From contig JAJCXM010000008.1 of the NCBI GenBank assembly GCA_029263455.1, positions 372,001 through 436,000 on the forward strand: a DNA stretch of 64,000 nucleotides, given 5' to 3'. The notes below the pieces were generated by a model. That model was given only the letters and a program-made list of their open reading frames with translations, had not been told where the DNA came from and did no database searches. Position numbers and translations under genes: made by a program. This document shows positions 9,939 through 16,367 of this stretch, in pieces. The DNA is from Holophagae bacterium. GTDB lineage: Bacteria; Acidobacteriota; Holophagae; Acanthopleuribacterales; Acanthopleuribacteraceae. How positions within the stretch are numbered: position 1 is the stretch's first letter; each line of letters opens with the position of its first letter.

Positions 9939-10865
9939 TCAATTAAGGAGTTCGACTAGACGCTCGCAACTCTCTTTAAGGCGTTCGAATCCTGTCGGGT
10001 AAGTCAATTGATAGGTAGGTGTCTTTGTCGCTAGTTCAGCCAGGAACCGCAGGCGTTCTTTGCGTTTGGGCAATAGGTTTTCGAATTCGGCTACGTGGGC
10101 GACGCCTATGAGGGTCGTAAGTGCCTTTTCAGGCGCGATCGGAGTGAGCTCTGGGGCTGATTGCTGTGCGACACGGTCGAGCAGGATGAGTGCTTTTAGT
10201 TTGCATGGCTGATGGTGCACCTGCTCGCGAACCAACCATTTTTTGTCGCTGCCCGGGACGACTTGAGGCGCGTTTAAGCTTTCTGGCATGTAGCGTTGGC
10301 AACTGTCTGGCCAAAGCTTAGAGATTCCTGGCCCTGCGTGAACGGTTAAGCTTGGCATGCCAGGGTCTAGCGCAATGACATCATCCGATAGGATGGTGAG
10401 ACCTCGCTCTTGTAAGGCCATCGACATGGTGGACTTACCGGCGCTGGAGTGACCCATCATGCCAATTGCTTGACCGGATAGGGAACAGCATGTTGCATGG
10501 ATGACAATTCGTCCCATCAATTCCATCGCCAAACTCAAGGGTTTCGCCAATAAGTAGGGGATAGGATTAACGGCACCAGACGAGGTGGCAACTTCTAAGC
10601 TTCCGGCTTGCACCCATATGTCGGTTGTATTGGGAAAAGAAAAGAGATAGCCTTCATCACTTTGCTTGATTTCAAAATTCGGCTTTAGTTCGCTTGTGAG
10701 TCTTGGACTCTTATAGATGCTGTTCGGATTGACGCTAAAGGGGCCACCACGCCTCATGATCTTTATATTGGCTTCGTCGTCGATGGCTTTGGATTCGGGC
10801 AGCCCAAGGTCAATTTCGCTGGTCACCATTAGATCGTGAAACCTGTAGTGATAGCAGGGCTTCAT
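9939..10865 (-). CDS. HPr-kinase-like lasso peptide kinase
   Basis: A 308-residue ATP-dependent kinase of the HprK-like group found in lasso clusters. The P-loop is GHSSAGKST (about residues 140-148), the Walker B-like segment is LTILSDDVIAL, and a conserved HAGPGISKLWPDS follows. The N-terminal 110 residues are a variable beta-rich domain. In paeninodin-type pathways the homologue phosphorylates the C-terminal Ser of the precursor. The precursor encoded three genes upstream ends in Ser, which fits. The ATG overlaps the stop of the PqqD-like gene as ATGA. It is the last gene of the operon; the next gene starts 167 bp away and is unrelated. Confidence in the family is high, in the substrate moderate. 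Confidence 0.85.
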   Translation of the reverse strand: MKPCYHYRFHDLMVTSEIDLGLPESKAIDDEANIKIMRRGGPFSVNPNSIYKSPRLTSELKPNFEIKQSDEGYLFSFPNTTDIWVQAGSLEVATSSGAVNPIPYLLAKPLSLAMELMGRIVIHATCCSLSGQAIGMMGHSSAGKSTMSMALQERGLTILSDDVIALDPGMPSLTVHAGPGISKLWPDSCQRYMPESLNAPQVVPGSDKKWLVREQVHHQPCKLKALILLDRVAQQSAPELTPIAPEKALTTLIGVAHVAEFENLLPKRKERLRFLAELATKTPTYQLTYPTGFERLKESCERLVELLN

Positions 10866-11167
10866 AATTGTGGATGCGTGTTCGACGGGTTTATCGTTGC
10901 TTTTTCGTCGTTGTGGCTAATGATTAATTCATGATTGAGCAGGTCAACGATAAGTGCGTTCATGTCAGATTGGGCTATCAATCGATCGATGCCAAACTTA
11001 CCAACAACTTGATTGAGGATCTCTGCTTCGGTTTTACCGGCTGCCAGCTGTTCAAATATGAAGCGGCCGGTCGCGTTTAGTTCGAAATAGATTTCGTTTT
11101 GGAGGTCAACGATGATGGCGCTATCGCCTATTTTCTGACAGATCACGTCGGTGGGTATCTCGTACAT
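10862..11167 (-). CDS. PqqD-like leader-binding protein (lasso B1/RRE)
   Basis: The start is set at the second of two adjacent ATGs (11167), since AGAGGAGA sits just upstream; the frame itself opens earlier inside the cyclase gene. The product is about 101 aa and starts MYEIPTDVICQKIGD. It shows the PqqD winged-helix pattern: paired strands SAIIVDLQNEIYFELNATG, then FIFEQLAAGKTEAEILNQV. Such RiPP recognition elements bind the conserved Tyr/Pro part of the leader and deliver the precursor to the protease and cyclase. In this cluster it would recognise the YVPP segment of the precursor. It is coupled to the kinase gene by ATGA. Confidence 0.85.
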   Translation of the reverse strand: MYEIPTDVICQKIGDSAIIVDLQNEIYFELNATGRFIFEQLAAGKTEAEILNQVVGKFGIDRLIAQSDMNALIVDLLNHELIISHNDEKATINPSNTHPQL

Positions 11168-11198
11168 CATTCTCCTCTGACTGCTGATGGGTATTCTA

Positions 11199-12746
11199 CT
11201 AAGGAAACTGCGTTTTGGCTCCACACCAAGTGCCAGCCTTTTGATGATTCTCTATCCAATAAACATAGGCATGACTGATCCAAAACGCGAAGCCGTGTTC
11301 CTGACGAAGGTCTCCCTTGCACCATTCATCGAGCAAGCGGGACTTTATCCAAGGCTGAAGTGCCTTTCGAAATTGCGAAATTCTTCGCGCCATGCTCCCT
11401 TTTGAGAATTGGATCCTGTCATCAAACCAAGGTTCAAGCGTCGTACGCCTCGTGCGTTTGGTGACTGAGTCGGGTAGGCGGTTCGCCATCAGAGTTCTCA
11501 GCAGCGGCTTTGAATAGCCGTGAGATGGCAGTGTCTTGGGTACACTTAGTGCGAATTCCACCAGACTGCGGTCCCGTAATGGTGAAACTAGAGGAAACGC
11601 ATGTGGAAGAAATAGGTTCTCCCATGAATCGTTTTGGCTGGCGCGGCTGCCCAAGTTCGCTTGTGCCTGATCAGGTCGCCTAAATGGTTTGTAATTAACG
11701 GATTGAAGTGATTTTTTGGCATTGGTAGTGAGCCAATTTGATTGCCGGAATCGGGCGCGCCATTGTCTCAATTTTCGTCGTGACAGCAGGCGGCTCTTGA
11801 AAAGTGGCCGAAAGAGTTCATCGCCCCAAACCCCGTTCAGTAATAGGTCGACGCCTTCTTGACTGGCTCGATGATAGAGCCGTTGTTTGATCTCAACAAA
11901 CGAATGCATATCCGGCGTGAACGGGTGAGGCGCAGTTAGTTCATGGTTATTTAGGCTAGCGAAATTGCCGTCTATCTTTATTAGTGGCAAACCTAAGTAT
12001 TTGGCGGTTTCCTGGATCTCAAACGATTCGTCAATTTTTGGATCTTCGAATGTCCATGAGAATGCCGTCAGGGTGCCGAACTCGCGCGCATAAGCAGCAA
12101 CGGTAGGCGAATCCATGCCGCCGCTCAGCATAATACCCATCTTCTTTGGCCGAAAGGCTTGATGGATGTTATCGAATGATTGCTTCATCAGTCGGTCTAA
12201 CTCTTGGATCTGAGTTGTTGCGTCTAGTCTGGAATAGAGATCGTTGTCCAGTATCCTGTTTCTGCGGCTATGTATGCCATCTCTTGAAATAGTGACTGTT
12301 GTGCCTGCGGCAACTTCGGTGACTTTCTCTAAGAAAGTTTCCTGGTCAGGATGATCTACCTGGCCTAAATACGAGGCGAGCCTTGTGCGACTTGGGTTAG
12401 CGTTCAGAGGAAACGCATTCGGTCGATTGCTTATGATGAGTTGTTCGTTGTTTCGATAATAGAAAAGGCTACGTCGGCCAAGCGGATCTCGAGTGAGGGT
12501 GACAGTGCCTTGTCTGGCGTCCATGACAACGGCCACAAACAGACCGTCTATTTGATTGACAATGTCAGGATTACCGCCAACGATCTTGTTGAAAATGGAT
12601 TGGCTGTTGATGCCAAAAACGACGCCATCAAGCAGGAGGCAGAATTCACTGGACGCGTGCCACTTTACCTGTCCACAGTCTTTCTCCAGGACATAATCAT
12701 GAGTCGGTAACGAAATTGGAAGAGACAGGTCGAGCGTGAATGCCAA
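11199..12746 (-). CDS. Lasso peptide macrolactam synthetase (asparagine synthetase-like)
   Basis: A 515-residue ATP-dependent enzyme predicted to adenylate the side-chain carboxylate of the core Asp and close the lasso ring on the N-terminal Gly. The C-terminal ATP-pyrophosphatase domain has the PP-loop LSGGMDS (about residue 208). The N-terminal amidotransferase-like domain keeps the LTRDPLGRRSLFYY signature but lacks the Cys2 nucleophile of true asparagine synthetases, as is usual for lasso cyclases. The start is TTG at 12746, five bases after the precursor stop; no better ATG is near. A primary asparagine synthetase is unlikely given the missing Cys and the neighbours. Confidence 0.9.
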   Translation of the reverse strand: MAFTLDLSLPISLPTHDYVLEKDCGQVKWHASSEFCLLLDGVVFGINSQSIFNKIVGGNPDIVNQIDGLFVAVVMDARQGTVTLTRDPLGRRSLFYYRNNEQLIISNRPNAFPLNANPSRTRLASYLGQVDHPDQETFLEKVTEVAAGTTVTISRDGIHSRRNRILDNDLYSRLDATTQIQELDRLMKQSFDNIHQAFRPKKMGIMLSGGMDSPTVAAYAREFGTLTAFSWTFEDPKIDESFEIQETAKYLGLPLIKIDGNFASLNNHELTAPHPFTPDMHSFVEIKQRLYHRASQEGVDLLLNGVWGDELFRPLFKSRLLSRRKLRQWRARFRQSNWLTTNAKKSLQSVNYKPFRRPDQAQANLGSRASQNDSWENLFLPHAFPLVSPLRDRSLVEFALSVPKTLPSHGYSKPLLRTLMANRLPDSVTKRTRRTTLEPWFDDRIQFSKGSMARRISQFRKALQPWIKSRLLDEWCKGDLRQEHGFAFWISHAYVYWIENHQKAGTWCGAKTQFP

Positions 12747-12751
12747 ATATC

Positions 12752-12907
12752 TTAGGAAGGGAAAGCAGTATTAAAGTTACCAGAATCTCCTTGTCCGACA
12801 TCGCCACCTTTGGTGAGATCTTGGATCCGACCAAGTTTAGTTAGTTTAGGAGGTACATAGGCTTCGGCTGGGTACTGATTTACTGATTTTTCGTTTTCTT
12901 TATTCAC
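12752..12907 (-). CDS. Lasso peptide precursor
   Basis: A 51-codon gene with a GTG start, an AGGA seven bases upstream and an in-frame TAA immediately before the GTG, so no longer product is possible. The leader (residues 1-33) carries YVPPKLTKLGRIQDLT, a full match to the lasso signature YxxPxLxxxGxxxxxT with Thr at the penultimate leader position. Predicted cleavage after Lys33 gives the core GGDVGQGDSGNFNTAFPS. Gly1 can be joined to Asp8 in an eight-residue ring; Asp3 is too close. The ten-residue tail holds Phe12 and Phe16 as possible steric plugs and ends in Ser18. It lies 5 bp upstream of the cyclase in one operon. The ring and cleavage sites are inference from the family rule. Confidence 0.88.
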   Translation of the reverse strand: MNKENEKSVNQYPAEAYVPPKLTKLGRIQDLTKGGDVGQGDSGNFNTAFPS

Positions 12908-13127
12908 TTATTAGTCCTGCTTTTTGTTGCTCGAATTGAAACGGGTGCTGTAACTTCTAATGATTGTCGGGTTGTCGATACATAACCTAAGGCGAATGTT
13001 TTGTTTTTCAAATGCGATATTATTAACGTAATGGCATCTTTGTACCGAATAAATGTATCATAAGGTGTGCAGGTTAGCACTGTCACGTGAAAAAACCGTT
13101 GTTATAGACGTAACTGGAGTACTTGCA

Positions 13128-16100
13128 ATGAATCTTTGCTGGAAATTAACGAGGCCCTTTATTTTTGTGTTGGCTTGTACCATCGGTTACAGCGGCTACG
13201 ACAGCTACACGGGTAATGTGACAGGTATTTACCATACACAACAGGGCACAGATCCAGCTGGACCGCTTGATTTTACGGATTTTGACCAGGGTCTGATTGA
13301 AAGTGCTGACAACGTTACGGTCTATCTTTTTGCAGAGCGACAACAATTCACACTTACGTCTAACTTAACCATCGACACCGTAACGCCGGGAACCTATACC
13401 TCCACGAATGAACCGTCGGGCGCAACTATCAGTAGTGGCACCGAAGTTGATAGTTTTCTTCTACATTTTGATCCGGTAACCGACAATTTCACTCTTAGAG
13501 AAGCGTCGGGAAGTATAACCTTCGACGTGCCTATCCTGGGTGTTATTTGCGGACAGGCGAATCTGATAGCTAGCGACGGTCTTGGAATCGCTGGAACAAG
13601 CTTTCAGTCGGGCGATAACTACCGCGGCACAGTGAGTGGCAACGAACCCGCCGGCGATAGCTTCACCTTGTCTTCCGACTTGAGGACGGTTACCTTTACA
13701 TTTCAAACGCGTCTTCAGTACATGGAAGAACTTCGTATCATTACGGAGGGTACTTCCACGGTTCCTGTGACGCCCGCATTTTTTAAAGCAACGCCGTCAG
13801 GTCGTGGGACGCAGATTGAATGGGCGACTGCCACCGAAGCAGGCAATGCCGGTTTCCACCTTTACCAATTCACCGAAAAGGGATGGCAGCGCGTCAATGA
13901 CAAGTTAATTGCCAGTCAAAGCGTAGACGGACTTACCCCAAGCACTTATTTTTATCAAGGTGCAAAATCGGAAAGCAAAGCGTTTCGCCTTGGCGAAGTT
14001 GATATATTTGGTCAGGAACGTTTCCATGGTCCTTATCAAACAGGCAAAGCTTATGGTAGGCCGGTTAATCTTGAACCCATTAATTGGCAGATGATTAATC
14101 AGCAACACGATTCGTTACAGCGCGCTCGGCTCCTTCAACGAAGCCAGAATGTCAATTCGGTCCTGAACAGCATTCGCGGTGGTGCAGATGTCTCGGCATT
14201 TACGGTGGCCGAAATCCAAGTTCAAACCGATGGCATTCAACGGGTTACGTTTGGCGATTTGTTGACGGCAGGTATCGATCTTTCGGGCGTTCAAGGTGAT
14301 GACATCGCCCTGACCGAACGTGCTAGACCGCTTGCAATCCGTTTGGGCGGCCTCAGTAAAGGCATATTTGGACCAAACAGTTTCGTGGAGTTCTTGGGTG
14401 TAGCTAGCAACAGCATGTACTCAAATATCAACGTCTATGAATTGCAATTGGATGCGAGCTTGGCTCAGCGGATCATTGAAGACGATTCTCCTTTGGTCAT
14501 CGACCAAGCGCCTTTGGATCACTACTGGGCTTCATCTGAAGTCTATGAAGATGCCAAATATAGTTTTTCATCGCCAACAGGCGATCCTTGGTACCAAGAG
14601 TCATTGCTGGCGTATACCATCAATGAGAGTTTTGATTTCGAAATCTACTTAGATCATGTAACGAGTGAGCAAGCAACCTTGTTCGTTGACCTTTGGGGCG
14701 TAACCACTTGGGAAACAACTCCGGACCACCATGTCGTGACCTACGTCAATGGTGTCATGGTTGATAATGCCTTTTTTGACGGCTTAACAGAATATGGGAT
14801 TCAGGTGGACTTACCAGCCGGACTCGTTCATGAAGGTGCCAACCAAATTACACTTTCATTGCCTGGTGATACCGGCGTTGATTACGACTTGATTTACCTT
14901 GAGGGCTATGCGGTTCAGTACGAGCGCTCTACAGAAGCAAAAGATGGCGTGCTTGATTTTGAAGCGGCAGGCCGTGTGGTTGGAGTCAGCGGGTTAAACA
15001 ACACGGACGTGGTTATTTACCGTATCCTTGACGGCAACGTTGTACATATCAGTGAGCCAATCGTGCAACAAGATGGAGCATCAGTTTCCGTAAGCTTTAA
15101 TGGACACGATAACAACGCTCGCTATGTGGTCGCATCTTCGGATGCCCTGCAGAAGCCAGTTGTCCAGGCTCCAAGACCCTTCACCGATATCACTTCGGGA
15201 CAGGCAGATTTGCTCATCATCAGTCATCCTGATTTCATCGGCGGCTTAGCCAGCCTTGTGAGCGCCCGCCAGAGTCAAGGATATGTGACTCGTGTTGTGG
15301 ACGTTGAGGATATCTACAGCCAGTTCGGTCAAGGAACCCCAGATGCACAATCGATTCGCGACTATATCGCAGTTGCGGCTGGTAGCCTGAATATGAGTTA
15401 CGTATTGTTGGTCGGCGGCGATACCTATGACTATTTCGACCGTCTTAATTTGGGCTCGATCAGCTTCATCCCTTCACTTTATGCAAAAACCCATCATGTG
15501 GTCTATTTTGCGCCCGTCGATCCGCTATACACGGATTTGAATGGCGACAACGCCCCTGATTTGCCAATTGGGCGATTCCCAGTACGCACGTTAGCGGAAT
15601 TGGATTTTGTCATCCAAAAAACCTTGCAGTTCCCTAATGCTGGTCATCAGCGCAGTGCCATCCTGGCATCGGATACGGGCTTTTCGGATGTCAGTTCCAC
15701 ACTCTCAATGATCCTACCCGCTAACTGGCAGGTTAATTACGCGGACATCGACATTTCAGGGGTCGCGAACGCAAGAGTATCGCTGCTGAATGCGCTGAAT
15801 CAAGGTACGGCTCTAACAAGTTTCTTTGGTCATTCGGCCCCAACCCTTTGGACGTTTGACGGCCTATTCCATGCGAATGATAGTGTCGGACTGACTAACT
15901 ATGGGAAACCGACCATCGTTACGCAATGGGGTTGTTGGAATACATACCACGTAGATCCACGCTATAACACTTTGGGCCATAAATTCCTGTTGAGTGGCAA
16001 TCAAGGTGCCGCCGCTGTACTTGGTGGTGTGTCGTTAACCGATGAGAGTTCTGATCGTTTACTTGGTGAAGTGATCTTTGCCAATATGATTCAGGGTGGT

Positions 16101-16367
16101 TATTCAATAGGCGACGCCATACAAGATGCAAAGGCCGAGTTGCAAAATACGCATGCGGGTATGGATGTGATTCTGGGTTGGACATTATTGGGTGATCCCA
16201 CGTTGGCGCTTGTCAACGAAGGCGTTCCCAACGACGGTGATGGCGGCCCTCGGGATGACGGCGAGGACACAGGCGATGTTGGTGATGGCGACGGTGGTGA
16301 CGGTGGCTCCGGGAACGGTGGTGACACTGGCGATGGTGGCACTGAAGATGACGGCGGCGGAAAATAG
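13128..16367 (+). CDS. Secreted gingipain-like (C25) cysteine peptidase
   Basis: The ATG at 13128 is chosen because GGAG lies eight bases upstream and a hydrophobic signal (FIFVLACTIG) follows; VLAC could be a lipobox. The 1079-residue protein has a beta-rich N-terminal half (from about residue 225, AFFKATPSGRGTQIEWATAT, a fibronectin-like module common in secreted proteins). The C25 domain begins near residue 700 (ADLLIISHPDFIGGL). The catalytic His is in FFGHSAP and the catalytic Cys in VTQWGCWNTYH. A tail of Gly and Asp ends the protein, perhaps a calcium-binding spacer. It is divergent from the lasso operon, with 220 bp between starts. Confidence 0.88.
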   Translation: MNLCWKLTRPFIFVLACTIGYSGYDSYTGNVTGIYHTQQGTDPAGPLDFTDFDQGLIESADNVTVYLFAERQQFTLTSNLTIDTVTPGTYTSTNEPSGATISSGTEVDSFLLHFDPVTDNFTLREASGSITFDVPILGVICGQANLIASDGLGIAGTSFQSGDNYRGTVSGNEPAGDSFTLSSDLRTVTFTFQTRLQYMEELRIITEGTSTVPVTPAFFKATPSGRGTQIEWATATEAGNAGFHLYQFTEKGWQRVNDKLIASQSVDGLTPSTYFYQGAKSESKAFRLGEVDIFGQERFHGPYQTGKAYGRPVNLEPINWQMINQQHDSLQRARLLQRSQNVNSVLNSIRGGADVSAFTVAEIQVQTDGIQRVTFGDLLTAGIDLSGVQGDDIALTERARPLAIRLGGLSKGIFGPNSFVEFLGVASNSMYSNINVYELQLDASLAQRIIEDDSPLVIDQAPLDHYWASSEVYEDAKYSFSSPTGDPWYQESLLAYTINESFDFEIYLDHVTSEQATLFVDLWGVTTWETTPDHHVVTYVNGVMVDNAFFDGLTEYGIQVDLPAGLVHEGANQITLSLPGDTGVDYDLIYLEGYAVQYERSTEAKDGVLDFEAAGRVVGVSGLNNTDVVIYRILDGNVVHISEPIVQQDGASVSVSFNGHDNNARYVVASSDALQKPVVQAPRPFTDITSGQADLLIISHPDFIGGLASLVSARQSQGYVTRVVDVEDIYSQFGQGTPDAQSIRDYIAVAAGSLNMSYVLLVGGDTYDYFDRLNLGSISFIPSLYAKTHHVVYFAPVDPLYTDLNGDNAPDLPIGRFPVRTLAELDFVIQKTLQFPNAGHQRSAILASDTGFSDVSSTLSMILPANWQVNYADIDISGVANARVSLLNALNQGTALTSFFGHSAPTLWTFDGLFHANDSVGLTNYGKPTIVTQWGCWNTYHVDPRYNTLGHKFLLSGNQGAAAVLGGVSLTDESSDRLLGEVIFANMIQGGYSIGDAIQDAKAELQNTHAGMDVILGWTLLGDPTLALVNEGVPNDGDGGPRDDGEDTGDVGDGDGGDGGSGNGGDTGDGGTEDDGGGK

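Follow-up and report, generated by a model that had tools for sequence, protein, structure and literature searches.

The minus-strand reading frame at 12752-12907 of the window (the whole 64,000-nucleotide stretch of Holophagae bacterium DNA analyzed here) is judged from its sequence, with high confidence, to be a genuine lasso peptide precursor gene. Its product is quite probably a class II lasso precursor and a divergent member of a core family found in several phyla, whose clusters often hold a dedicated C25 protease gene. The lasso peptide class itself is already known, while this widespread core family is apparently undescribed: the open literature searched, which excludes most subscription journals, held no description of the family, of its C25 association or of the aberrant member. 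The locus comprises the following features.

12752..12907, minus strand: lasso precursor gene (A), 51 aa, GTG start, AGGA ribosome-binding site at 12915-12918
12809..12907, minus strand: leader, 33 aa, register Y-17 P-14 L-12 G-8 T-2
12755..12808, minus strand: core GGDVGQGDSGNFNTAFPS, predicted 8-residue ring Gly1-Asp8 and 10-residue tail ending in Ser18, from alignment with 81 other precursors
11199..12746, minus strand: lasso macrolactam cyclase (C), Asn_synthase family (87.9 bits), SGGMDS motif intact
10862..11224, minus strand: B1 / RiPP recognition element (RRE), PqqD family (PF05402, 43.6 bits, over the cut-off)
9939..10865, minus strand: HprK-like lasso precursor kinase (K), His, GxxxxGKS and DD motifs intact
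13053..16367, plus strand: Peptidase_C25 (PorU-like) gene, divergent from the precursor, 210 bits, likely start ATG 13128

The precursor frame opens with a GTG at 12907, directly preceded by an in-frame TAA (12910-12908) and by AGGA at 12918-12915 (5' to 3', AGGA-CTAATAA-GTG), and its stop ends at 12752. These coordinates confirm the first-pass annotation, which had described a 51-codon GTG frame with AGGA upstream, a stop just before the start and a cyclase gene 5 bp away; that spacing holds to the first start of the cyclase frame, a TTG at 12746, but the true start codon of the cyclase is uncertain. The gene had also been called easily missed, and it is indeed short with a GTG start, although a standard HMM would name it once called: NCBIfam NF033521 lasso_leader_L3 matches the leader at 23.7 bits (cut-off 19, E 3.4e-5). 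This score and homologous precursors in three phyla support the identification as a lasso precursor, and a search for homologous short frames beside related cyclases, the absence of which had been named as a refutation, found them, so that the claim survived.

Tyr-17, Pro-14, Leu-12 and Thr-2 are all present in the leader, which with Gly-8 gives the register described for lasso RREs in the report on the bsf cluster (PMC10368454), and the motif lies at residues 17-32 (YVPPKLTKLGRIQDLT), as had been claimed. The register also supports the proposed cleavage site, giving a core that begins with Gly1 and has Asp8 within the position 7-9 range, both common to its relatives. Core positions 7-9 are G, D and S, which leaves Asp8 as the sole ring-closing candidate, in agreement with the earlier proposal, and Asp or Glu occupies position 8 in 82/82 family members, this position being part of the search pattern. 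The predicted Gly1-Asp8 ring is well supported on this basis. The computed [M+H]+ of the cyclized core is 1708.720, and 1788.686 with one added PO3H.

An adjacent asparagine-synthetase-like cyclase and an RRE (B1) are both present, as in other lasso clusters. The cyclase frame contains the Asn_synthase domain plus GATase remnants and forms a long branch with 28% identity to its nearest neighbor, the tree not fixing its place; the nearest cyclases in the phylum show 25-31% identity to it. Hpr_kinase_C matches the kinase at 24.0 bits, under the cut-off of 33.3, with the His, the P-loop GKS and the DD all kept. Plasmids searched with the cyclase yielded only generic asparagine synthetases (22-29% identity), and the cluster is absent from the same-genus genome G004. 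The cyclase match in genome G035 was set aside as probably not a lasso cyclase, since its region shows asparagine-synthetase-like genes and no lasso precursor. An EIIA-type PTS protein and two membrane proteins resembling antiporters are encoded beyond the kinase and seem unrelated to the cluster.

To find related loci, the leader and ring were turned into a DNA pattern imposing G1, G5, G7 and D/E8, since an alignment of five cyclases gave no conserved stretch suited to a locus search. The pattern matched 81 stretches in 84,980 species genomes, belonging to Acidobacteriota, Chloroflexota and Pseudomonadota. The set of 82 loci consists of 80 listed stretches, the window and G032, and includes some near-copies, so its counts are not independent. 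One or more of the lasso enzymes (C, K, B1, B2) are encoded at 73/82 loci. Five of the nine loci without them have C25, which brings the total to 78/82, and in the last four the precursor sits no more than about 330 bp from an end of its stretch. The consensus of the 82 precursors is G[GP][ST]xGxG[DE]SG, with Asp (44) or Glu (38) at position 8. Ser9 (80/82), Gly10 (75/82) and Ser or Thr3 (81/82) stand at positions that the pattern left wholly or partly free. A looser pattern leaving position 9 free, run on 396 genomes of the phylum, matched only G000, G032, G373 and G391, all with Ser9 and all with a cyclase match as well, and a reversed control pattern had no match in any listed genome. The cores beside the nearest cyclases of the phylum read GGTPGSGDSG.., GPSPGVGESG.. 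and GVSAGVGDSL... The first-pass annotation's statement that the core resembles no known lasso peptide is therefore not supported: with G1, G5, G7, D/E8, S9 and G10 all present, the window core is an outlying member of this family. In two core-family clusters (L072, L103), kinase-like frames show no detected GxxxxGKS, and these frames may be divergent, inactive or mis-extracted.

We call the window member a divergent relative because its Asp3 is unique among the 82, where position 3 is otherwise Ser (61) or Thr (20). Position -1 is mostly Leu (58) or Met (21), with Lys solely in the window, and the window precursor alone among the 82 ends in Ser. Together with a kinase from the lineage of the same-family genomes and the lack of a local B2 gene, these features make it an aberrant member. 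The first-pass annotation had passed over the missing B2, the conserved C25 neighbor and the consequence of Asp3, which takes away the residue phosphorylated in the closest system studied (Ser3 of BsfA, PMC10368454).

In the kinase tree, which has few rows and long branches, the window kinase groups with those of the same-family genomes G001, G002, G003 and G006 and with the genome's own kinase on contig C22 (100/99), apart from the core-family kinases. The precursors of G001 (..VIAS), G002 (..VIAS) and G006 (..VQSS) all end in Ser, and those of G003 and C22 end in SSSQG and KSML. As described in its report (PMC10368454), the bsf cluster of Bradymonas sediminis (BsfA/K/B1/B2) is like the window cluster in its HprK-like kinase, discrete B1 and predicted Gly1-Asp8 ring. 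BsfK, whose motif residues H, G, K, S and both D are needed for activity, phosphorylates the ring residue Ser3 of BsfA, a residue shared with the wider core family and not with the window member. BsfA has Ile-2, whereas the window precursor has Thr-2, Asp3 in place of the Ser/Thr3 acceptor and a Ser at its C-terminus, and its cluster lacks a B2; the available text of the report mentions no C25, which the window cluster has. Lasso phosphorylations reported before BsfK were, according to the same text, all on a C-terminal Ser. The paeninodin-type systems that it cites (ThcoK, SyanK) share with the window the HprK-like kinase motif (His, P-loop and DD are present in the window kinase), the discrete RRE and a Ser-ending precursor (here Ser18); the window differs in its unrelated core, the absence of a local B2 and a phosphorylation that is predicted.

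Phosphorylation of the precursor, which had been suggested earlier, is plausible with an HprK-like kinase linked to the gene. The kinase would act most likely on the C-terminal Ser18, for which we put the chances at roughly even, and otherwise on Ser9 or Thr14. The window lacks the Ser/Thr3 of its family and has Ser18 instead, so it would be coherent, though unproven, for the phosphosite to have moved from position 3 of the ring to Ser18 as the kinase changed. A variant in which the phosphate sits on Ser9, or off the core altogether, is a real possibility of somewhat lower probability: Ser9 is nearly invariant and BsfK acts on a ring residue (PMC10368454), but the window kinase groups with genomes whose precursors end in Ser, and the precedents before BsfK in that source point to the C-terminus.

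No B2 leader peptidase gene was found in the window cluster or on its contig. Whole-genome searches with PF13471 and NF033537 each found one B2, on contig C1 at 100.3 kb, which keeps its Cys (GPCLKSS) and His (FHAWLE) and is flanked by RRE-like, HprK-related, radical SAM and nucleotidyltransferase-like genes with no cyclase among them. This cassette (L023:7163-10792) is RiPP-like, includes a radical SAM/SPASM protein and has no identified precursor. It is closer than the window cluster to the linear polyphosphorylated peptide (LPP) clusters (PMC13381572), yet carries B2 and the radical SAM protein. The LPP systems resemble the window cluster in pairing an RRE with an HprK-like kinase, in a YxxP leader and in co-residence with lasso clusters, but are without a macrolactam cyclase, whereas a cyclase lies 5 bp downstream of the window precursor. 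Contig C22 holds a second lasso-like cluster (L022:13152-17640) with an RRE, a 621-aa cyclase, an HprK-like kinase, a methyltransferase-like protein and a 58-aa precursor that carries YSKPRLRQYGSVSVLT and has the predicted core GADISTQNDPNGKTTTGGKSML; no B2 was seen in it. Three loci of same-family genomes (L043, L044 and L045) have precursors with Asp8-Ser9, a C-terminal Ser and a predicted core beginning with Ala or Ser, and in them a B2 gene is convergent to the kinase.

The simplest reading, we infer, is that the one C1 B2 serves both the window and the C22 clusters. A decaying or incomplete cluster, in which the leader stays on for want of its own B2 and no lasso is made, is unlikely. Such decay would account for the missing B2, for the equally B2-less C22 cluster and for Asp3 and Lys-1, which deviate in an otherwise conserved ring; all frames are intact with their catalytic motifs kept, however, two B2-less clusters and one intact B2 fit sharing in trans equally well, and at 95% genome completeness the assembly could lack a second B2.

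A Peptidase_C25 gene is found at 30/82 loci in Acidobacteriota, Chloroflexota and Pseudomonadota, an undercount because most stretches are 8 kb or shorter; it is often adjacent, in most cases directly upstream of either the precursor or the cyclase gene. The window C25 keeps the His (FFGHS) and Cys (QWGCWNTY), and by its sequence it is a member of a lasso-linked C25 clade. The lasso-linked C25 domains of the three phyla and that of the window form one clade (99/100). Outside it fall 31 other C25s of the phylum, among them this genome's second copy; the single row labeled "other" that lies within the clade (L133) is the window's own gene. Members of the clade carry GHS and QWGCWN, where GHG is usual in the other C25s. 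The comparison set was drawn from the highest-scoring PF01364 matches, a possible bias partly answered by the reciprocal search, in which a clade profile run against 396 phylum genomes gave eight matches at 415-528 bits in G000, G243, G373 and G391, the next match scoring 261 bits. Six genomes have a cyclase match, and these four are all among them (P 1.5e-8 assuming genome independence, which fails). The specificity lies in the clade and not in C25 as such, since 104/297 genomes have some C25. The tie to lasso genes is partly genome-level, because clade copies lie away from lasso genes in G391 (L188, L189, L190, L191) and G243 (L192) and the G391 lasso cluster has no C25 next to it. A precursor was sought near the cyclase/C25 locus of G243 and not found. 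No C25 was confirmed in viral contigs, and the plasmids searched held one PorU only (22%).

The model of the window C25 (mean pLDDT 70.9, confident over 211-1031) matches PorU best (Foldseek E 3.7e-28), followed by the gingipains. PorU of the type IX secretion system (PDB 6za2), the best PDB match by both sequence and model, shares the C25 fold and the His/Cys pair; the window protein scores 145.9 bits on NF033707, below the cut-off of 420, and differs in its GHS...QWGCWN[TN]Y motif and its place beside lasso genes. At 16230-16364 of the window, the protein ends in an Asp/Gly-rich tail of ~45 residues, while most relatives seen stop soon after the C25 domain. The open papers searched, most subscription journals excluded, contained nothing relevant linking lasso peptides with C25 or gingipain enzymes or with Chloroflexi, and nothing on the core sequence.

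The association of C25 with the lasso genes is statistical, and the candidate relations between protease and peptide are inhibitor and enzyme, substrate and enzyme, or anchoring. PorU is a sortase, the basis for the last of these. Removal of the leader by the divergent C25 in place of B2 is very improbable. The conservation of C25 beside the core family and the Lys at P1 in the window, which would suit a Lys-gingipain-like enzyme, favor such a role, but P1 is Leu or Met elsewhere in the family, several C25-bearing clusters hold B2 too (L056, L063, L099), and the C25 begins with a signal-peptide-like stretch, which probably places it outside the cytoplasm. A chance open frame imitating a lasso precursor, in keeping with its shortness, GTG start and unusual codon composition (GC3 0.29 against about 0.5, low, in a short frame), is scarcely credible when the window has the combined leader and ring pattern a single time and 0/100 shuffles have it, the leader HMM is above its cut-off, cyclase, RRE and kinase adjoin the frame and three phyla hold homologous precursors.

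In the proposed pathway, B1 would bind the YxxPxL leader and the kinase would phosphorylate the precursor; the C1 B2 would cut the Lys-1/Gly1 bond in trans, a step we favor slightly, and the cyclase would very probably join the Gly1 amine to Asp8, giving the 8-residue ring with the tail SGNFNTAFPS. A class II lasso precursor with a divergent core, processed in this way, is our best explanation overall and is held as quite probable. Counted against it are the lack of a local B2, the sole B2 belonging to a different RiPP cassette that has an RRE, a kinase and a radical SAM protein of its own, and also the unique Asp3 and Lys-1, the long cyclase branch, the low GC3 and the absence of the cluster from G004. 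A more speculative reading, held tentatively and at somewhat less than even confidence, is that the core family works with a dedicated PorU-like C25 clade (as target, processor or anchor) and that the window peptide has changed its kinase and now carries its phosphate at the C-terminus instead of at ring position 3.

No natural role is known for most lasso peptides. The co-occurrence of one lasso family with one clade of secreted proteases in three phyla points to a concrete partner that can be tested, and if the partnership is real, it could reveal a lasso peptide that inhibits or regulates a protease or is its substrate. The window member, with Asp3 and Ser18 in contrast to the usual Ser/Thr3, would serve as a natural test of kinase specificity and also of whether clusters share a leader peptidase.
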